Below are positions 30,200-40,933 of a stretch of 40,933 nt of DNA, piece after piece (positions within the stretch are counted from its first letter, which is position 1; each line of letters begins with the position of its first letter). Position numbers and translations under genes: made by a program. A model generated the notes under the pieces. It saw only the letters and a list, made by a program, of their open reading frames with translations, was not told the DNA's origin and did not search any database. This stretch comes from a virus, in the IMG/VR virus record IMGVR_UViG_3300022072_000029, positions 1 through 40,933 of that record; one strand, 5' to 3'.

Positions 30200-33100
30200 A
30201 TGTCAAGACCATTTACGAAACTAAGTGACTCGTTCAAGACAATGCGAGACAACCAGAACACTGTCTCTTATAATGTTGGCGATCCGGTGGATCTTCTCAC
30301 TCACGGTGATAGTGATGTGGTCATGGCCATCAACGAAATCGAAAGGGTGTTTGACGCATCTTCCGGTGAAATCATTTATCCTACGGGAAATGCCCTCCAA
30401 GGGGAAACTCAAACTCGTTTACTAATCAGTACTAATCAAGCAAGTGGTACTGATGTACAATTCAATGTCGGTGCAAACTTCAACGTTGATGCGGTAGGTG
30501 ATATTAATTTAGATGCCGGTGGATCTAACATCAACTTCCTTGATGATTCGGTCAGTCGTATTGCATTCACATTAGGTACCACTAACACAGTTGGTGTGAC
30601 TGGTATCCTTGATCTTGATGTTTCTTCTAACTTAGATATCGATGTATCTGGTGATACAACTCTTACCTCTACCGGTGCAACTAGAATAGAAACGACCACA
30701 TACACTGTCGATGCGTCCGGAGATATTATCCTTGATGCTGATGGTGGTAATGTCACATTCAAAGATGCTGGTGTCACAGAGTACGACTTTGCTACTGACG
30801 GTACAGTTTCTCGTACCGGAAACTTGACATTTGACATCTCGGGTGATATAATCTTCGATGCAGATGGGGCAAACATTACATACAAAGATGGTGGTGTTAC
30901 TCGTATTGCATATACGATGGGTACCACTAACACCGAAGCCGTAACTGGCAATTATACTCTTGATGTGTCTGGTAATATTATACTAGATGCGGACGGTGGA
31001 AACATCGACCTAAAAGACGGTGGAGTATCTAGATTTGAATACGGACTTGGTACATCTAATACCTTAGACATTACAGGTAATCTAACTCAAACCGTCTCAG
31101 GCAACTTCTCAGACAGTGCAAATGGTACTCGTGACATCACCTCAACTGGTGCGATGTCTCATACCACTCTTGGTACTCTCACCACAACATCATTGGGACA
31201 AACCCATAATGTGACGGGAAACTTCGCTGTTGATGCATCTGGAGATATTACTCTCGATGCTGATGGTGGACAACTATATCTAACAGATGGTGGTGTCAAT
31301 AAGGTAACATATAATTTCGGTACGAATCAAGAGATTGATGTTGTCGGTTCTTTGATCTTTGATGTTGCCGATGATATTGTATTGGATGCCGGTGGTGGTG
31401 ACATTGACCTCAAACAAGCTGGAACGACTCGTTTTGCTTACGGACTGGGTTCAGCAAATACTTTAGATGTTACAGGTACACTCACTACTACTACTTCGGG
31501 TAACAACACCCTTACAGTGGCAGGAGATCACTCTGACAGTGCTTCTGGTACTCGTGACATCTCTTCGACTAACGGTATTAATATCGACACTCGTGGCCCG
31601 ATGACGAATACTGCGGGTGGTGCGTTCAATCTTGTTACTGAATCAAACATGGGTCTTACCGCTGGTGGTAACCTAACCGCAGATGTTGAGGGTGATATTA
31701 ACCTTGATGCAAATGGCGGTAATGTTACACTTAAAGATAATGGGGCGATCAGATTCGACTTCGTTATGGGTGCGAATCAAGAGATTGACGTACCCACCGG
31801 CAACTTAACTGTCGATGTGGCAGGTGATATAGTACTGGATGCAGACGGTGGAGACATCGACTTCAAAGATGCAGGTACTTCTCGTTTCTCATATGGAATG
31901 GGTGCGTCAAACACTTTAGATGTTAACGGTAATCTTACACAAACTGTATCAGGTAACCAATCTGATAGTGCTGGTGGTACTTACTCAGTTACTTCTAGTG
32001 GTGCAATGTCTCATACTACTTTGGGTACATTGACCACAACATCATTGGGACAAACCCATACAGCAGACGGTAATTACTTGATCGATGCTTCTGGTGATAT
32101 TACACTTGACGCAGATGGAAACGACATTTACTTCAAAGACGGTGCATCCACACGCATCCGTCATCAATTAGGTGCAACAAACAACATCACTGTTACCGGA
32201 GATTATAATATATCGGTAAGTGATTCTGCATCTTTGTCTACTACAAATGGTTATAGTCTAACTATTGGTGGTTCGGTAAAAGAGAATATTACCGTAAACA
32301 AAACTACTACTGTTGGTGGCACATTAGTAAATGCTATCATCGGTGCATTAAATGATAGTGCGGACTCGTATGGTCTGACTACTACAGGTAGTATTGTACA
32401 GACTGCCGGTGGATCTACATCTACTACCGCAGGAACAACTGCAACCATCAATGCAGGAACAAATATTCTTCTTGATGCAGAAGGTGATATTACACTTGAC
32501 GCGAATGGCGCGGACATCTTCTTCAAGGATGGCGGTGTCACTAAGTTCACCTATAACCTTGGTACAAACCAAGAAGTTGATGTTGTAGGAAATCTGACGT
32601 ATGATGTCTCCGGTGATATTATACTTGATGCAGACGGTGGTAATGTATTCCTTAAAGATGCAACCGTTCAGTTTGGTGAATTCCGAAACTCTGGCAATCA
32701 TCTGGACATTTATTCTGGTACTGGTCTTGCAATCGAAATGGATGCAACTAAGGTAGAGATACATGGTCGTGCATTCCACACTGACGAAGATCTAGACACT
32801 ACCGCACAAGATGTTGCGGGTGGTATCAATGAACTTCATTTGCAACTAGATAGTGCAGTTACCGAGATAGAGTCCGAGAAACTTATAACCCGTGCGCATC
32901 TGGACATTATACAGTCCGGTGGTACAACTGCGAACATGTCAGGAACAGGTATCTCCACACTGGATACAACAAGTAAGTTTATTGTTCCGGCTATCAATGA
33001 GATCCACACCCAACTGGATAGTGCGGTTGGTGAGATTGAAGTTGTAAAGGGTAGAGTTACAAGTAACGATACTGACATTCTTAACTTGAGTAATCGAGTG

Positions 33101-33241
33101 GGACAGTTGAATCAACTTGATAGTTCTGCGCCAGGCAACTTCTTCGAAGGTATAAATAATGATAGTATTGTTAAAGCGTTAAATGAACTGGCATCTAGAA
33201 CTGTCTTAATCTATGACGAAAACGGTACTCTTCTAAACTAA
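30200..33241 (+). CDS. Beta-repeat fibre protein, 1013 aa
   Basis: After an N-terminal adaptor with VVMAINEIERVFDASSGEII (about residues 37-57) the chain is a tandem repeat: a GDI-x-LDADGG-type block, then KDGG-V-T/SRF-x-Y, then a GT-x-N-x-x-x-V-TGN-L turn, about ten copies of roughly 35-60 residues. The regular Gly/Asp turns and alternating hydrophobic strands suggest a beta-helix shaft. Two copies contain the same SGAMSHTTLGTLTTTSLGQT segment (near 31150 and 32000), sharing long exact DNA stretches. The C terminus has three more I/L-N-E-I/L-type helices (GGINELHLQLDSAV, PAINEIHTQLDSAV, KALNELAS) like coiled-coil caps of phage fibres. It is probably a baseplate-anchored fibre shaft; the receptor end is not identified. 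Confidence 0.75.
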   Translation: MSRPFTKLSDSFKTMRDNQNTVSYNVGDPVDLLTHGDSDVVMAINEIERVFDASSGEIIYPTGNALQGETQTRLLISTNQASGTDVQFNVGANFNVDAVGDINLDAGGSNINFLDDSVSRIAFTLGTTNTVGVTGILDLDVSSNLDIDVSGDTTLTSTGATRIETTTYTVDASGDIILDADGGNVTFKDAGVTEYDFATDGTVSRTGNLTFDISGDIIFDADGANITYKDGGVTRIAYTMGTTNTEAVTGNYTLDVSGNIILDADGGNIDLKDGGVSRFEYGLGTSNTLDITGNLTQTVSGNFSDSANGTRDITSTGAMSHTTLGTLTTTSLGQTHNVTGNFAVDASGDITLDADGGQLYLTDGGVNKVTYNFGTNQEIDVVGSLIFDVADDIVLDAGGGDIDLKQAGTTRFAYGLGSANTLDVTGTLTTTTSGNNTLTVAGDHSDSASGTRDISSTNGINIDTRGPMTNTAGGAFNLVTESNMGLTAGGNLTADVEGDINLDANGGNVTLKDNGAIRFDFVMGANQEIDVPTGNLTVDVAGDIVLDADGGDIDFKDAGTSRFSYGMGASNTLDVNGNLTQTVSGNQSDSAGGTYSVTSSGAMSHTTLGTLTTTSLGQTHTADGNYLIDASGDITLDADGNDIYFKDGASTRIRHQLGATNNITVTGDYNISVSDSASLSTTNGYSLTIGGSVKENITVNKTTTVGGTLVNAIIGALNDSADSYGLTTTGSIVQTAGGSTSTTAGTTATINAGTNILLDAEGDITLDANGADIFFKDGGVTKFTYNLGTNQEVDVVGNLTYDVSGDIILDADGGNVFLKDATVQFGEFRNSGNHLDIYSGTGLAIEMDATKVEIHGRAFHTDEDLDTTAQDVAGGINELHLQLDSAVTEIESEKLITRAHLDIIQSGGTTANMSGTGISTLDTTSKFIVPAINEIHTQLDSAVGEIEVVKGRVTSNDTDILNLSNRVGQLNQLDSSAPGNFFEGINNDSIVKALNELASRTVLIYDENGTLLN
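33151..33158 (+). promoter_or_regulatory. Intragenic late promoter (TATAAATA) for the first tetrad-repeat gene
   Basis: Exact octamer near the 3' end of the 1013-residue fibre gene, 97 bases upstream of the ATG at 33256. It could give separate late expression of the repeat protein. Confidence 0.6.
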
Positions 33242-33255
33242 TAGTAGGAAAGAGA

Positions 33256-36200
33256 ATGTCAGATAATAAGACATTACCGTTAAAATTAAAAGACATTAAT
33301 GGTAATCTCCAACAGATAAATGCAACCGAGAAAAATTATGTTGCCTACCTCGCAGGACTACAGAACGCAATTGCGGACAGTAGCGATGTAGGGCTTCTTA
33401 CGCTCAGTGCAAGTGGAAATAGGTCTCTTGGATCTCTGACGGATACCTATTATCCAGAACCCGTTGGAACTCATCCATATAATGCCCAATCGGTTATTAC
33501 CACCACAACAAATTTACATCAGATCAATGGTACCGCACTAGAGAATGATAGTGATTGGAGAAAACCAGTCGGACATTATGAAAGTAATGTATATGAAATG
33601 TCGGATAATGATCTGAACACTTTCATCGATGATATCAATGGTCGTATCGCACTATCTGACTATCCAGGCTCTCTCAAGTTGTCTTCGACCAGACCTAGTG
33701 CAGACTATGACATTCTAGTCCCTAGTGTTTTGCATGATCAACGTGCTGACTCTTCGGGGAACCCATATACTGTAAATGACTATAGTATATGGCGTAGAAC
33801 TGCAATGACTGCTCCAACTTCGGTCACTCTCGCGGGACTGAAGAGAAGTAGTGGCGACAGTGGTGATTATCAAGGACTTCAAAAGTTAACTGATCGTCAA
33901 GTTCAAGTGACTATTGGTCAACGTGCAAAGACTAGACGTGCAATTGATGGCGCGGTCGGATCATATGAACTTAGAACTTCTTCGCAGGGTATACCTGTCG
34001 GTGGCACTTGGAAGAATGTAGGTAGTGCTGCAAACACCATTCGTGTTGTCAGTGAACAGAACTATACTCGCACACGAGCATCTTTATACACGAGAACTAG
34101 ACCTTCGGCTTACGCTGATGATTACACTCGCACAGGGACAGTTTCATATGCCGGTGAATTCACAGGCAATTACACCAGAGAATTTATAGGAGACTATACC
34201 AGAGAATTTACGGGCAATTATACCGGTGATTTTACTGGCGACTATTCTAGAGACTTTGCGGGTAACTATTCTAGAGACTTTGCGGGTAACTATAGTGGAA
34301 ATTACACAGGTGACTACCTTCGCCACTTTTCACGTACCTTTTTTAGAGATTTCATAGCGACACGTATCAGTTCATATGCCGGTAACTATGCTGGCAATTA
34401 TACCAGAGACTTCACACGGACTCGGGAATCGGCTTATGGTAGAATCCGTACATCTAGTTATTCCAGAGACTTTGCAGGCGAATATACTAGATCGTTTCTT
34501 GGCAACTATGCTGGTAACTATGTAGGTGAATATACACGCATCTCGACACGTGAGAGACCATCTACCTATACCAGAACAAGAATAGTAAGTAGAAATTCCA
34601 GTTACACTGGCGATTATACCAGACTTTTCTCTGGACAATATGCACGTGACTACACCAGAATTAGGGCATCAACTTACACTGGCGATTATACCAGAGATTT
34701 CTCTGGACAATATGCACGTGACTTTACTAGAATTAGGGGATCAACTTACACTGGCGATTATACTGCCACATATATTGGTGAATATGCAGGTGACTTCACA
34801 AGAGATAGGGAATCAACTTACACTGGCGATTATACTGCCACATATATTGGTAACTATGCACGTGACTTCACTAGAATTAGAATTTCTTCATACTCCAGAA
34901 GCTTCATTGGTAACTATGCACGTGACTTCACAAGAGATAGAAGTTCAGCATATCTTAGATCCTTTGTTGGTGAATATGCACGTGACTATACAAGAAATAG
35001 AATTTCTACATATAATAGAAACTTCAGCAGAACTCGTTTCTCAACATATATTGGCGACTTCACTCGAATATTAAACTTTACACGCACTTCGACATCCACA
35101 TATGGTGCTGTTAGAGTAAGTAATTATACACGAGATCGTGTAGAATACCTAAAAAATACTTTTTACTTTACTGGTGATTACATAAGAGAGTTTGTGGGTG
35201 CTGGTTATTTGGGATTGCCGGGAGAATATACTCGTAACCGTACATCTACTTTTGCAGGATTTGTGAATTCTGTCAGATACGACAAATCGGGTGGTGGTCT
35301 TTACTTTGCTGGCCCCGCTACGTATACCGGTGACTTTATAGCTACTAGGACGGTTCCTTCATACATTGGTGATTTCACAAGAGTCAGTTCATATTTGAAG
35401 GGATCCGTTCGCGAATTTACTAGGACTCGGGTATCTACTTATTCTAGAGAGTTTGCTGGGGAATACTCAAGAAACTTCGAAAGAGCCAGAGTATCAAGTT
35501 ATAATAGATTGTTTGTTGGCGAATACTCAAGAAACTATGAAAGAACTAGAAATTCGAATTACAACAGATCGTTTGCTGGGGAATATGCAAGAGACTTTAC
35601 CAGAAATAGAGATTCTAGTTACATAAGAGTTAGATCTTCTATTTTTGCGGGAGAATATGCGAGGGACTTTACCAGAAATAGAGATTCTAGTTACATAAGA
35701 GTTAGATCTTCTACTTTTGCGGGAGAATATGCAAGAGACTTTACCCGAGAAAGAAACAGTAATTATATACGGACTAGGTCTTCTACTTTCTCGGGACAGT
35801 ATGCAAGAGACTTTACCCGAGAAAGAAACAGTAATTATATACGGACTAGGGTTTCACTCTATACTGGTAACTATACCGGTGAATATACGAGAGACTATAC
35901 CGGTAACTATACCGGTGATTATGCAGGTCTATTTACCAGAGTTAGATTAAATGATCGTGATTCGACATATATCAGAACTCGGGTATCGTCTTACCTTAAA
36001 GCGTTTGCTGGGGATTATACAAGAGATTTTGGCGGCAACTATACCGGAGGTTTCCTACGAATATCAACCAGAACAAGGTTCGATTCTTTCAGTAGAGCTC
36101 GGGTTTCGTCATACACAACTTTTAGAGGATCTTCATACGCTGGAGTTTATGCTGCGGATTATGTCGGTGATTATACTGGTGAGTTTACCAGAGATAGAAA

Positions 36201-36459
36201 CTCCAACTATACCCGAGAAAGAAACAGTAATTATATAAGAAATCGTGATTCCACATACACCAGAACTAGAGGATCTTCATATACTAGAGAGTCTACTCGA
36301 ACAAGAACTGTAGATTTTGGCGGCAACTATATTGGTAATTATAGTAGAAACTTTGCCGGTAATTATTCCAGAGACTTTGTAGGAGACTACGTGGGTCAGA
36401 CTATTAGGGATACTACATTCTCAGTTGAAACATATACTCTGTATGTAAGAACCGCATAA
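33256..36459 (+). CDS. Tetrad-repeat giant fibre protein A, 1067 aa
   Basis: ATG 33256 follows TAGGAAAGAGA. Residues 1-269 are a globular N-terminal region with PLKLKDINGNLQQINATEKN and GRIALSDYPGSLKLSS near residues 130-145. From Tyr270 the chain becomes a tetrapeptide repeat, [Y/F/R]-x-[G/R/S]-[D/N/E/T/S], in unbroken register for 84 tetrads to residue 605, for example YTGD FTGD YSRD FAGN. After a partly degenerate part (residues 606-720) the repeat resumes and holds a block of 24-residue copies near residues 773-868. Lys, Cys, His, Pro and Trp are nearly absent from the repeat; Arg is the only common base. The C terminus is short (ETYTLYVRTA). No signal peptide is present. I do not recognise the family. 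By position it should be a virion fibre. Confidence 0.75.
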   Translation: MSDNKTLPLKLKDINGNLQQINATEKNYVAYLAGLQNAIADSSDVGLLTLSASGNRSLGSLTDTYYPEPVGTHPYNAQSVITTTTNLHQINGTALENDSDWRKPVGHYESNVYEMSDNDLNTFIDDINGRIALSDYPGSLKLSSTRPSADYDILVPSVLHDQRADSSGNPYTVNDYSIWRRTAMTAPTSVTLAGLKRSSGDSGDYQGLQKLTDRQVQVTIGQRAKTRRAIDGAVGSYELRTSSQGIPVGGTWKNVGSAANTIRVVSEQNYTRTRASLYTRTRPSAYADDYTRTGTVSYAGEFTGNYTREFIGDYTREFTGNYTGDFTGDYSRDFAGNYSRDFAGNYSGNYTGDYLRHFSRTFFRDFIATRISSYAGNYAGNYTRDFTRTRESAYGRIRTSSYSRDFAGEYTRSFLGNYAGNYVGEYTRISTRERPSTYTRTRIVSRNSSYTGDYTRLFSGQYARDYTRIRASTYTGDYTRDFSGQYARDFTRIRGSTYTGDYTATYIGEYAGDFTRDRESTYTGDYTATYIGNYARDFTRIRISSYSRSFIGNYARDFTRDRSSAYLRSFVGEYARDYTRNRISTYNRNFSRTRFSTYIGDFTRILNFTRTSTSTYGAVRVSNYTRDRVEYLKNTFYFTGDYIREFVGAGYLGLPGEYTRNRTSTFAGFVNSVRYDKSGGGLYFAGPATYTGDFIATRTVPSYIGDFTRVSSYLKGSVREFTRTRVSTYSREFAGEYSRNFERARVSSYNRLFVGEYSRNYERTRNSNYNRSFAGEYARDFTRNRDSSYIRVRSSIFAGEYARDFTRNRDSSYIRVRSSTFAGEYARDFTRERNSNYIRTRSSTFSGQYARDFTRERNSNYIRTRVSLYTGNYTGEYTRDYTGNYTGDYAGLFTRVRLNDRDSTYIRTRVSSYLKAFAGDYTRDFGGNYTGGFLRISTRTRFDSFSRARVSSYTTFRGSSYAGVYAADYVGDYTGEFTRDRNSNYTRERNSNYIRNRDSTYTRTRGSSYTRESTRTRTVDFGGNYIGNYSRNFAGNYSRDFVGDYVGQTIRDTTFSVETYTLYVRTA
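34063..35070 (+). repeat. 84 in-register tetrapeptide (12-bp) repeats in fibre A
   Basis: The DNA has a 12-base period because each tetrad uses four codons. Adjacent 24-base copies are identical in places (for example TCTAGAGACTTTGCGGGTAA recurs near 34250 and 34274). Position one is Y, F or R in nearly all tetrads, G or S rarely. Confidence 0.85.
35572..35859 (+). repeat. Four tandem 72-bp repeats in fibre A
   Basis: Units start at 35572, 35644, 35716 and 35788, each six tetrads (24 residues) beginning F-A/S-G-E/Q-Y-A-R-D-F. Long stretches are identical between neighbours at DNA level, showing recent duplication or conversion. Confidence 0.9.
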
Positions 36460-36466
36460 ATAAACT

Positions 36467-36474
36467 TATAAATA
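36467..36474 (+). promoter_or_regulatory. Late promoter (TATAAATA) for fibre B
   Basis: Exact octamer with GAA after it in the 48-base gap after fibre A, 34 bases upstream of the GTG start at 36508. Confidence 0.8.
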
Positions 36475-36507
36475 GAAATAAGTTTAATAAATTAGAGAAG
36501 TGAATTT

Positions 36508-39500
36508 GTGGCCGCATCTGATATCCCACTAAAGTTAGAAGGTACGAATGGTGATCTGAAGGAGATGACTCCTACGGAAGAGAACTATCTCGCCTATCGT
36601 GCAGGTATTCAACTAAAGAATTCTTCGGGTTCTTCTGCGGGAGACTTGCATCTCTCTAGTGGCACTATCATTGGTTCTTTCGTTGATACTTTCTACAATG
36701 AACCTGATGGTACCCATCCCGCATCATCTATCACTTCCGGCACAACTACGACTAATCTAAGACAACTATCTAATGATGCGAACTATACTGGTAGTTTTTA
36801 TAACAGACCGGTTGGTTGGAACACTTCGGGTGATGTAGGTATTCATGAATTTACTGATGTAGATATGGATACCTTATGTACTCGTCTGAATGCACGTATT
36901 GCAATATCTGATTATCCAGGCACCTTTTACCTCGGTTCTTCTGCACCTAGTGCGGACTATGGTACATTTATCCCCGCTGTATACACAGATACATTAGGTA
37001 ACGGAACTTCTACAGTATACAATATCTACCAACGTGATGCAATGACTGCACCGACAGCCACGTCTCCGATTGGTATGATTGGGTCAGGTTCTGCCGCCAG
37101 TTTTGGTGGATTACAAGAACAATCTGTTAACCAGATTACTTACACTTATGGACAACACTGTAAAACTCTTAGGGGAAAGGTGGGTAATATTGGTTCTTAC
37201 CAATTAAGATCTGCGACTCAGGGAACTCCGGTAAGTGCGGGAACTTGGGCCGCAAAAGGTACTGCGACCAATACTAAAAGAACAACTTCAGAACTTGCAT
37301 ATGTTCGTACTCGTGCATCTTCTTATACTCGTGATCGTTCATCCGCATACGCAAGAACAAGAACTTCACTATACACTCGTAATAGCACAAATACGTTCAC
37401 CCGAGGTTTTGGTGGAAATTATATTGGCAACTACACTCGAAACTTTTCGGGACAATATACCAGAGATTATGTGGGTGAGTATGTCGGTAATTACGTAGGT
37501 GAGTACACAAGAAACCGTGCTTCAACTTTCACTAGAAACAGTACTGATACTTTCTCTCGTGACTTCTTGGGTAACTATGCCCGCAATAGAGTATCATCAT
37601 ATACCAGAGATAGTATCAATACTTTCACCGGTAACTTTGTAGGCAATTATTCTAGAACAAGAGTATCTGCATACAGTAGAAATAGTATTCGCAACAGGTT
37701 GAGTACATATACTCGTAACAGAACATCTACATACGCAACCGTATTTTCGGGAAACTATATTGGTAATTTTGTTGGGGATTATTCCCGTACTAGAGTATCC
37801 GCATACGCAGGAACATACTCACGTAATCGCATATCAACATATTCGCGAACCCGTACCAGTGCATATATTCGTGATCGAGTAACATCATTTATTGGCGACT
37901 TTACTGGTAACTATGCACGTAACAGAGTATCATCATACTCTAGAATAAGTACGCGTACTCGTATCTCTGCATATACCCGAACTAGAAACTCCACATACAC
38001 CAGAGATCAACTAACGACTTTTACCGGTAACTATGTTGGTAACTACGGCCGTACTCGTATCTCTGCATACGCAAGAATTCGTGTTTCTAATTATGCAGGT
38101 AATTATACAGGTAATTATACACGCACGAGAATATCCGCATATACACGTGATCGAGTAACAGACTTTACCGGTGACTATATTGGTAACTACACTCGTGGCC
38201 GAGTTTCCAATTATATTCGGGATAGACTTGTAACTTTTACCGGTGACTATGTTGGTAACTATAATAGAACATATGTTGGTAACTATAATAGAACATTTAT
38301 AGGTAACTATTCACGTGGGTTTGCGGGTGACTATACCGGCAACTATTCTCGTATATCAACACGTATTAGTGCAAGAACAAGAGGTTCCAACTACACTCGT
38401 ATTTCTTCACGGAATTCATTGGTAACATATACTCGCGACAGATTCCAAGGATATGTCGGTAACTTTGGTGGTAATTACGCAAGAACATTTGTCGGTAATT
38501 ATGTCGGCGACTATGGTAGATCATTTGCTGGTAACTTTACCGGAAATTATAACCGTGCGTTTGCTGGCGATTATACTGGTAATTACAATCGTGGATTTGT
38601 CGGTAATTATATCGGCAACTATACCGGAAATTATAACCGTGCGTTTGCTGGCAATTATACTGGTAATTATAATAGAGGGTTCGTAGGAGAATATGGCCGT
38701 ACTCGTCCCTCTAACTATACCAGAAACAGCACACGTATTTCGACTCGTATACTCAACTATATCAGAACAAGTCTCCGAACTTCGGTTCGCACACTCAACT
38801 ATATCCGAACGAGTCTCCGGACTAGCACTCGAATTTTAACATATACTCGTGATTCGACCTATGCGGGTAACTACACGGGCAACTATGAACGTGTAAGAAT
38901 TGCAACTGGTGACTATATCAGAACCAGAATTGCGACCGGAACATATATCAGAACCAGAATTGCGATCGGAACATACATTCGTACCCGAATTGCGACCGGA
39001 ACATATATTCGTACATCAATAAGAGACAGACAAGACACACTGTACTACGGACGTACAAACTATTTTGCAGGTAATTTCACAGGTAACTACACTCGTACAT
39101 TGTATTATGTTGGTAATTTCACAGGTGACTACACTCGTACATTGTATTATGCTGGTAATTTCACTGGTAACTACACTCGTACATTGTATTATGTTGGTAA
39201 TTTCGCAGGTAACTACACTAGAATAGTTAACTATGTAGGTGACTATAGTCGAATAGTTAAACAGACAGTGTATTATACCGGTGATTATTTAAATACAGCT
39301 GCGTTCCTGAGATATTCTGCAAGAACCAGAACTGCGACCGGATATTATATCAGAACATCTACACGTACTAGAACTGCGACCGGAAATTATATCAGAACAT
39401 CTATACGTACTAGAACTGCGACCGGTACGTACATTAGAACAAGTCTCCGTGATTCGTCTCGATTCGATAACTATTCCCGAACTGGATATTATATAGGTAA

Positions 39501-40933
39501 CTATACAGGTAACTATACCCGAACTCTATATTACACTGGTAACTATCAGCGTACCTTATATTATACTGGTGACTATACTCGAACTCTATATTACACTGGT
39601 AACTATACTCGTACATTGTATTATACAGGCGACTATACTCGCATATCTATTCGTAATAGAATAACTCCATTATACTTTACTCGCATTGGATATTATGCAG
39701 GTGACTTTACGGGCGACTACACTCGCATTGGATATTATGCAGGTGACTACATAGGCGACTACACTCGCATTGGATATTATACCGGTGATTTTACTGGCGA
39801 CTATGGTAGAACTTTTGTCGGAGACTATTCGCGAACTCGCATCTCTTCATATACTAGAATATCTACACGTAATAGAATTTCTGTATATATTCGTATATCG
39901 ACAAGAGACTCGATGAGAGAGCGCATCTCCACATATACTCGTATATCGACCCGTAGTAGAATTTCTGCATATACTCGTATATCTACACGCAGCAGACCTA
40001 GTAATTACACAAGAACTCGTATCCAAAACAGAAGTTCTACGTATACTCGTACATCAACTCGTGATAGTATTGTGTCATATACATCTGGTGGTGGTGCACG
40101 TTACTCAGATCAATCTAACTTACTTGCAACTAACTTTCCTGAATGGACAGTAGGCACAGGTTCTGCGACAAACTATGGTCAGAACGGTGACGGTAACTCA
40201 CGTATTGTAGATGCGTCTCCGAAAGGTCAAGATGTTGTCTGGCAGACAGTAAATAACGATACAACATCTAATGCTGATGGTGGTTGGAACTCAAGTCAAT
40301 TTGCAATTGATGATACTAAACTATACAGATTCTCTACTTGGGTTAGACGTAAGGTTGTTGGTAATGGTCACTTCTATATGGGAACACATGGCTGGAACAG
40401 TGCCGGTACCCAGATTGGTGTTCTACGAAGAGACAACGGTTCCGTAACTACTAACCCATACTTTGAGGTTAATGCCGATTGGGGTGAATGGTCAACGGGT
40501 GGTAACGTAGACGATTGGTTCTTGGTAGTTGCACACATTTGGCCAGCAGGTTCTGGCACTGGTTCTGCCAAGGCAGAGTCCGGTATCTATAATATTGGTG
40601 GCGAAAAGATAGACACTATCGAAAAAGACTTTGTATGGCAGTCCGGTACGGTTGGGTCAAGACATCGTTCATTCTTGTACTACTCTACAATTCCTGCAAC
40701 CAATCAACAATGGTGGGAACCTCGTGTAGATGATATGACTCATTCACTTGCTCCAACTGTTGCTGATATGATCACACAATCATCGAACTATACTCGTACA
40801 TTCGCGGGTAACTTCACTGGTGACTATACACGGGGATTCGCAGGAAACTACACCGGAAACTATACCGGTGAATATACTCGTATATCGACCCGTAGTAGAA
40901 TATCCGCATATATACGTACTCGTGCATCTTCTT
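36508..40933 (+). CDS. Tetrad-repeat giant fibre protein B, more than 1475 aa (runs off window)
   Basis: The start is GTG 36508, with AGAGAAG (36494-36500) seven bases upstream; an in-frame TAG at 36493 excludes earlier starts. Residues 1-264 resemble the N-terminal region of fibre A (RIAISDYPG, PSADY, GSYQLRSATQGTPV), so the two genes are tandem paralogues. Residues 265-748 are 121 tetrads in one register; residues 749-1190 continue with 10- and 14-residue variants. Residues 1191-1421 form a globular insert rich in Trp and Tyr (KLYRFSTWVRRKVVGNGHFY, DWFLVVAHIWPAGSG, WQSGTVGSRHRSFLYYS) that looks like a jelly-roll carbohydrate-binding or lectin-type domain. The tetrads then return from about residue 1428 to the window end. 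Its full length is not visible. Confidence 0.75.
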   Translation, partial: MAASDIPLKLEGTNGDLKEMTPTEENYLAYRAGIQLKNSSGSSAGDLHLSSGTIIGSFVDTFYNEPDGTHPASSITSGTTTTNLRQLSNDANYTGSFYNRPVGWNTSGDVGIHEFTDVDMDTLCTRLNARIAISDYPGTFYLGSSAPSADYGTFIPAVYTDTLGNGTSTVYNIYQRDAMTAPTATSPIGMIGSGSAASFGGLQEQSVNQITYTYGQHCKTLRGKVGNIGSYQLRSATQGTPVSAGTWAAKGTATNTKRTTSELAYVRTRASSYTRDRSSAYARTRTSLYTRNSTNTFTRGFGGNYIGNYTRNFSGQYTRDYVGEYVGNYVGEYTRNRASTFTRNSTDTFSRDFLGNYARNRVSSYTRDSINTFTGNFVGNYSRTRVSAYSRNSIRNRLSTYTRNRTSTYATVFSGNYIGNFVGDYSRTRVSAYAGTYSRNRISTYSRTRTSAYIRDRVTSFIGDFTGNYARNRVSSYSRISTRTRISAYTRTRNSTYTRDQLTTFTGNYVGNYGRTRISAYARIRVSNYAGNYTGNYTRTRISAYTRDRVTDFTGDYIGNYTRGRVSNYIRDRLVTFTGDYVGNYNRTYVGNYNRTFIGNYSRGFAGDYTGNYSRISTRISARTRGSNYTRISSRNSLVTYTRDRFQGYVGNFGGNYARTFVGNYVGDYGRSFAGNFTGNYNRAFAGDYTGNYNRGFVGNYIGNYTGNYNRAFAGNYTGNYNRGFVGEYGRTRPSNYTRNSTRISTRILNYIRTSLRTSVRTLNYIRTSLRTSTRILTYTRDSTYAGNYTGNYERVRIATGDYIRTRIATGTYIRTRIAIGTYIRTRIATGTYIRTSIRDRQDTLYYGRTNYFAGNFTGNYTRTLYYVGNFTGDYTRTLYYAGNFTGNYTRTLYYVGNFAGNYTRIVNYVGDYSRIVKQTVYYTGDYLNTAAFLRYSARTRTATGYYIRTSTRTRTATGNYIRTSIRTRTATGTYIRTSLRDSSRFDNYSRTGYYIGNYTGNYTRTLYYTGNYQRTLYYTGDYTRTLYYTGNYTRTLYYTGDYTRISIRNRITPLYFTRIGYYAGDFTGDYTRIGYYAGDYIGDYTRIGYYTGDFTGDYGRTFVGDYSRTRISSYTRISTRNRISVYIRISTRDSMRERISTYTRISTRSRISAYTRISTRSRPSNYTRTRIQNRSSTYTRTSTRDSIVSYTSGGGARYSDQSNLLATNFPEWTVGTGSATNYGQNGDGNSRIVDASPKGQDVVWQTVNNDTTSNADGGWNSSQFAIDDTKLYRFSTWVRRKVVGNGHFYMGTHGWNSAGTQIGVLRRDNGSVTTNPYFEVNADWGEWSTGGNVDDWFLVVAHIWPAGSGTGSAKAESGIYNIGGEKIDTIEKDFVWQSGTVGSRHRSFLYYSTIPATNQQWWEPRVDDMTHSLAPTVADMITQSSNYTRTFAGNFTGDYTRGFAGNYTGNYTGEYTRISTRSRISAYIRTRASS
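37300..38751 (+). repeat. 121 in-register tetrapeptide (12-bp) repeats in fibre B
   Basis: Tyr265 to residue 748 read as consecutive tetrads with Y, F, R or S at position one, for example YIGN FVGD YSRT RVSA. The register never slips over 484 residues. DNA copies are diverged but keep the 12-base period. Confidence 0.85.
38896..39015 (+). repeat. Four tandem 30-bp repeats in fibre B
   Basis: Ten-residue units of type RIATGTYIRT at 38896, 38926, 38956 and 38986: two tetrads plus two residues. Confidence 0.85.
39067..39234 (+). repeat. Four tandem 42-bp repeats in fibre B
   Basis: Fourteen-residue units of type VGNFTGDYTRTLYY at 39067, 39109, 39151 and 39193, nearly identical in DNA for the first three; the fourth diverges at its end. 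Confidence 0.85.
39319..39444 (+). repeat. Three tandem 42-bp repeats in fibre B
   Basis: Fourteen-residue units of type TRTRTATGNYIRTS at 39319, 39361 and 39403, differing at a few codons. Confidence 0.8.
39523..39642 (+). repeat. Four tandem 30-bp repeats in fibre B
   Basis: Ten-residue units of type TLYYTGDYTR at 39523, 39553, 39583 and 39613. Codon choice varies between copies (CTA/TTA/TTG for Leu, CGA/CGT/CGC for Arg) while the peptide is kept. Confidence 0.85.

Follow-up and report, generated by a model that had tools for sequence, protein, structure and literature searches.

Tetrapeptide-repeat proteins of marine T4-like phages, likely modular fibers, are linked to a cassette encoding a predicted oxygenase and a probable glycosyltransferase

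The window analyzed here, a 40.9-kb virus record (40,933 nucleotides), carries T4-type genes for the tail and baseplate. Its right end is occupied by two open reading frames (ORFs), A and B, whose products are paralogs that have in common a head of ~260 residues, a shaft of four-residue units (tetrads), and a C-terminal tail of the form ...ETYTLYVRxA. The family to which they belong occurs commonly in contigs of marine T4-like phages; at least 118 stretches were obtained from two scans of IMG/VR in which loci were chosen by the repeat motif alone. A role for A and B as fibers is likely. On balance, we lean toward a fuller reading, in which they are modular adsorption fibers of a marine T4-like phage and enzymes encoded by the virus hydroxylate and glycosylate their repeats. 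The features of both proteins, and of the gene upstream of them, are listed in Table 1.

Table 1. Coordinates of the two tetrad genes, their parts, and the upstream neighbor in the window
Feature	Position	Strand	Remarks
A, whole ORF	33256-36459	+	1067 aa
B, whole ORF	36508-40932	+	GTG start, 1475 aa, open at contig end
A head domain, aa 1-264	33256..34047	+	AlphaFold2 model; 45% identity to B head
A tetrad tract 1, aa 270-605	34063..35070	+	84 units, single register
A irregular spacer, aa 606-710	35071..35385	+	register breaks
A tetrad tract 2, aa 711-1045	35386..36390	+	one short irregularity near 934-960
A conserved C-terminal tail (..TIRDTTFSVETYTLYVRTA)	36391..36459	+	family consensus.GNY.G.TI......IETYTLYVR.A
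B head domain, aa 1-264	36508..37299	+	46.6% identity to head of C48C1 giant protein
B tetrad tract 1, aa 265-748	37300..38751	+	121 units, single register
B tract with 4-, 10-, and 14-residue units, aa 749-1203	38752..40116	+	
B globular insert, aa 1204-1434	40117..40809	+	differs between near-identical strains
B further tetrad stretch after insert	40810..40932	+	cut by contig end
Upstream neighbor with gp5-like beta-helix repeats	30200..33241	+	PHROG 430 match

The initial annotation had described two adjacent proteins with an unbroken tetrad register. Both ORFs were recovered, and the register runs through 84 units of A (residues 270 to 605) and 121 units of B (265 to 748) with zero slips. 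The residue classes proposed for the unit, applied strictly, fit 63 of the 84 units in A (75%) and 84 of the 121 in B (69%); the remainder are near-misses that have, for example, Ser at position 1 or one of Ala, Ile, Gly, and Gln at position 4. Over the same stretches, the three alternative registers gave 0 to 6 matches in A and 0 to 12 in B, or 0 to 10% of units. When the classes were widened slightly, up to 58 consecutive units fit in A and 25 in B, compared with a maximum of 6 to 7 in shuffled sequences (n = 500). The regular tracts cover only part of each protein. Past residue 605, A has an irregular spacer (~606 to 710) and then a second tract up to ~1045; past residue 748, B continues with 10- and 14-residue units and then a globular insert. 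Elsewhere in the family, the register is strict for up to 220 units.

In 31,946 tetrads from 218 family ORFs among the matches listed by repeat motif, segmented with emission weights that favor the tetrad residues and so bias the percentages toward them, position 1 was Tyr (47%), Phe (27%), Arg (16%), or Ser (7%); position 3 was Gly (39%), Arg (37%), or Ser (11%); and position 4 was Asn (35%), Thr (23%), or Asp (16%). Successive units also obey a grammar. A Gly unit is almost always followed by one that opens with Tyr or Phe, after RxSx the next residue is mostly Tyr, and units that open with Arg or Ser are found mainly behind an Arg unit. Arg and Tyr each account for ~13% of repeat residues, and Lys, Trp, His, Cys, and Met are nearly missing, as is proline from the repeats of A and B. 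The A and B repeats hold 5 Lys and 261 Arg, the reverse of the balance in the window's remaining structural proteins, in which Lys outnumbers Arg. For some residue classes, a period of 8 equals or exceeds the period of 4 in strength. One family member contains, at residues 1340 to 1764, a run of near-exact 12-residue units (ITYEGLYERQQD), related to the tetrad tract and rich in Glu/Gln.

The period is constrained at the level of the protein. Lag-4 periodicity in A and B is found at codon positions 1 and 2; codon position 3 is hardly periodic (0.34 observed versus 0.32 expected in A and 0.37 versus 0.34 in B), which excludes recent tandem duplication of DNA as the source of the period. Between related proteins, 46 of 57 indels within tetrad tracts are multiples of 4 and 54 are even; for indels that touch nonrepeat sequence, the corresponding counts are 6 and 17 of 28. 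The proposal in the initial annotation that side chains alternate between two faces of an extended strand is backed by these even lengths and by the unit grammar. Because an even indel would preserve both faces, their alternation seems to be a deeper constraint than the four-residue period itself.

Two shared ends support the view that ORFs picked only by their repeat motif form a single family. Among the matches listed, a YTLY-type tail closes 150 of the 157 repeat ORFs that have a closed 3′ end, including A (...ETYTLYVRTA), and nearly all of 156 extracted heads match one another. Distinct complete ORFs among these matches have a median length of 942 aa and a maximum of 3364 codons, and tetrad genes frequently occur there in adjacent pairs. 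Judged from relatives that are 98 to 100% identical in the head, B would be ~1790 to 1830 aa at full length; a complete B tail of the same type as that of A is present in loci L009, L011, and L016. A second type of tetrad gene, seen in L056, L079, and L178, ends not in the YTLY tail but in a proline-rich C terminus (GGPTDPGD.., PTPTPT..), and in L056 and L079 it adjoins an ordinary tetrad gene.

Profile and sequence searches of Pfam, PHROGs, and the PDB gave no convincing match for the family, in agreement with the initial annotation, which had not recognized it and had set it apart from pentapeptide, collagen, and RTX repeats; A and B gave no match to the Pfam profiles of those three. The sole PHROG that touches the repeats is phrog_15773, of unknown function (E = 0.0005). 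No cellular homologs of the tetrad-protein head were found, and only 1 of 50,697 phage records, that of phage C48C1, contains it, in a product annotated "hypothetical protein." The literature searched yielded no description of a tetrad fiber family. The repeat escapes ordinary searches because low-complexity filtering masks it. Two matches were rejected as family members. One, AG-345-D19, had no tetrad ORF that passed the filter; the other, from Synechococcus phage S-RIM2 (L002; KX349281, 89987-95725), is a structural protein with long [V/L]-T-G-[N/D] repeats and hence belongs to another family. In the PDB, the S-RIM2 repeat has matches to gp5-type spikes as well as to other repeats of four residues, and it may represent a hydrophobic relative of the tetrad shaft.

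Head and shaft differ in how they were modeled by AlphaFold2. The head of A, which is conserved across 56 aligned members, has a pLDDT mostly above 90 over residues 1 to 265; a Foldseek search with the head model, in which the disordered repeat part was included, returned no match at an E value of <0.3. The repeats, modeled as a single chain, have a pLDDT of <50, a value that fits disorder but also a shaft that takes shape only on oligomerization.

Among the matches listed, 25 of 71 full-length proteins have a shaft broken by globular inserts. These inserts fall into many unrelated groups, and one is PA14/GLEYA-like. The B insert is related to a virion structural protein that adjoins tail-fiber genes in Vibrio phages. 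When the window is compared with locus L008, the head and repeats of B are 99 to 100% identical and the insert is 76% identical at the nucleotide level, with sharp edges of divergence at nucleotides 3610 and 4299 of B; loci L011 to L014 carry a third allele. Near-identical flanks around a divergent, sharp-edged insert are what recombinational exchange of a receptor-binding module would leave. In one case the swapped insert could be an assembly chimera, against which the three alleles stand. The proteins pair a conserved shaft with an exchangeable module, as fibers do, and from these sequence comparisons the swapped insert appears a better candidate for binding than the shaft, which the initial annotation had suggested could be a beta-solenoid or a glycan-binding aromatic/Arg ladder.

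Behind the last tetrad gene, and usually starting within 130 bp of it, lies a cassette of three genes that encode, in this order, a basic protein of ~150 aa and proteins of ~240 and ~230 aa. Among the matches listed by repeat motif, 71 of the 72 loci that reach at least 1.5 kb downstream have the cassette. The linkage also holds in reverse. In a nonrandom sample, the best 80 loci by similarity to the second cassette protein, a tetrad gene directly precedes the cassette in 73 of the 74 loci with enough upstream DNA, and in the single exception it is ~4 kb upstream. The window lacks the cassette because the contig ends within B. All three cassette genes occur together in only 1 of the 50,697 phage records, again that of C48C1, the sole carrier of the tetrad head. 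The presence of the cassette behind nearly every tetrad gene suggests a virus that decorates its own fibers. Head, tetrad grammar, tail, and cassette together provide a sequence-level definition of common but unannotated marine phage proteins.

Tetrad genes lie in the tail/baseplate or host-recognition module, where fiber genes would be expected. The baseplate wedge protein of the window is nearest to that of C48C1, followed by those of Pelagibacter, Methylophilales, and Synechococcus myoviruses. A tail-fiber assembly chaperone (phrog_4912) is encoded directly upstream of the tetrad gene in C48C1, and an LtfC-like tail-fiber assembly protein (phrog_3304) is encoded 3′ of the cassette in C48C1 and L011; a metagenome-assembled genome (MAG) contig, L273, has the order tetrad gene, cassette, LtfC-like fiber assembly gene. 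The upstream neighbor of A, which keeps the same relative position across the near-identical loci compared, encodes a protein of 1013 aa that contains VSGDI/LDADGG repeats and has matches to the beta-helix families of gp5 tail lysozyme and to PHROG 430 (annotated as baseplate hub subunit and tail lysozyme; E = 6e-19). No lysozyme domain match was found in it, and it is probably another fiber or spike.

The three cassette proteins were characterized to different degrees. The first, represented by L009:18783-19235, is a strongly conserved basic protein (WMDNAFWE...EEIKNSKNRKLKAKLRRAKSK) and a possible fiber chaperone. The second has DxD, GGV, DQ, YN, and H motifs arranged as in GT8 enzymes, identified by eye without a significance value. 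Weak matches to GT2 profiles were obtained for 14 of 25 members (best E = 0.0019), and hhalign comparison with WaaO/WaaJ was nonsignificant, no better than a GT-B control. From its motifs, this protein is a probable GT8-type glycosyltransferase. The third was modeled by AlphaFold2 as a double-stranded beta-helix with a pLDDT of 93. Profile searches of Pfam and the PDB with its sequence found nothing, and its identity came from a structure search, in which all 50 PDB matches listed were 2-oxoglutarate (2OG)/Fe(II) oxygenases, with modest TM-scores of 0.27 to 0.48. These matches are mostly protein hydroxylases, among them prolyl hydroxylases, FIH, AspH, and a viral collagen prolyl hydroxylase, and they also include AlkB-type enzymes. 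In 29 sequences, His135, Asn137, His195, and Arg203 are invariant; the metal motif is HxN in all 29, with Asn137 replacing the usual acidic ligand of HxD/E. The model predicts the fold of a 2OG/Fe(II) oxygenase. A distant homolog of the oxygenase (28%) was observed in a Bdellovibrionales MAG contig, L275, which has no recognizable tetrad gene; it could point to an ancestral substrate.

From these observations, we infer a mechanism in which A and B are virion fibers that serve in adsorption. The ~260-residue head would join a long, extended shaft of [Y/F/R/S]-x-[G/R/S]-[N/D/T] tetrads that carries globular modules and ends in the short conserved C-terminal tail. One face of the shaft would present an aromatic residue or Arg together with Gly, Arg, or Ser, and the opposite face would present small or polar residues (Thr, Ala, Val, and Ser; Asn, Thr, and Asp). 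Either the head or the tail would hold the fiber to the tail apparatus, and the globular inserts, exchanged among strains, would touch the host surface. The cassette, with its small basic protein, GT8-like glycosyltransferase, and 2OG/Fe(II) oxygenase, would hydroxylate and glycosylate the repeats, or aid their assembly. Thr/Ser, Asn/Asp, Tyr, and Arg are candidates for residues modified before assembly, and the mature product would be a decorated protein fiber.

The main rival for the cassette keeps the same fiber but leaves its repeats unmodified; the enzymes would instead alter the host envelope, for example LPS sugars, and so block coinfection. This has a precedent in the host-recognition cluster of pelagimyophages, whose glycosyltransferases, mostly GT8, were interpreted as LPS modifiers (PMC7029224). 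We nevertheless consider it unlikely, since the tetrad gene is immediately followed by the cassette in almost every locus counted in either direction among the matches listed, the oxygenase model resembles mostly protein hydroxylases, besides AlkB-type enzymes, and the first cassette gene is unlike that of an LPS enzyme.

Other alternatives concern the shaft. It could be a gp5-type triple-stranded beta-helix in which Tyr or Phe takes the place of Val and a four-residue unit that of the eight-residue one. We judge this improbable: A and B gave no match to gp5 beta-helix repeats in Pfam, PHROGs, or the PDB, and an Arg-rich face would be unusual for such a core, even though the strength of period 8, the gp5-like repeats of the neighboring 30200-33241 product, and the match of the S-RIM2 tetrapeptide repeat to gp5 spikes speak in its favor. 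The Arg- and Tyr-rich repeats might otherwise be no ordered fiber at all but a disordered sticker polymer, a cation-pi condensate or a matrix associated with the virion. Their composition and their low pLDDT are consistent with such a polymer. A register held for up to 220 units, even indels in 54 of 57 cases, and a rule linking neighboring units would, however, be unexpected without a fixed geometry, and single-chain prediction often fails on shafts that form only as oligomers. We therefore regard the polymer as quite improbable.

If the cassette acts on the fiber, as the decorated-fiber reading proposes, these phages make enzymatically decorated fibers, which would give them a new means to tune adsorption or to evade receptors and defenses and could make viruses one origin of tetrapeptide glycofibrils in water. 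More tentatively, then, A and B may represent a new kind of viral fiber, a tetrapeptide shaft hydroxylated and glycosylated by a dedicated, coinherited oxygenase-transferase cassette and a phage counterpart of the glycan-coated tetrapeptide fibrils that cryo-EM has revealed in natural water.

Among known systems, phage C48C1 (OQ984149, Kyanoviridae) has the same head, tetrads, tail, and cassette, encoded by CDS0201 (3347 aa, annotated hypothetical) and CDS0202-0204; it differs from the window in having a single giant gene with several different globular inserts rather than an A/B pair. The C-terminal triple-stranded beta-helix of T4 gp5 is, like the tetrad shaft, a phage shaft repeat of even period with Gly, Asn, and Asp, but its unit has eight residues (VxGxxxxx), and A and B do not match it. 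Mycobacteriophage Tweety gp54 and its relatives carry 15 to 48 tetrapeptide repeats, in varying number, built of Ala-Ala-x-x units that are conserved as a DNA repeat and unrelated in sequence to A and B (PMC2884959). OCM3 (PDB 9ufe) shares with A and B a tetrapeptide period with Gly at position 3; its PSGQ repeats are proline based, whereas those of A and B are nearly free of proline. The Paramecium bursaria chlorella virus collagen prolyl hydroxylase vCPH (5c5t) is likewise a 2OG oxygenase encoded by a virus and shares the fold class of the cassette oxygenase; the two are 12% identical when aligned by structure, and vCPH acts on proline, which is nearly missing from the A and B repeats. The freshwater glycofibril TLP-4 (PDB 9ikm) is reported as glycan-coated linear tetrapeptide repeats (CryoSeek II, PNAS 2025, 10.1073/pnas.2423943122). 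A and B have a strict four-residue repeat, in a chain that may be extended, and a glycan coat on it would come from the linked cassette enzymes. The deposited TLP-4 chain consists of X-T-A-S repeats with no sequence match to A/B, and its position 1 is a nonstandard residue, X, rather than Tyr, Phe, or Arg; unlike A/B, TLP-4 is not known as a phage protein. Without placing A and B in the TLP-4 class, we see this glycofibril and the viral collagen hydroxylases as their closest analogs in kind.
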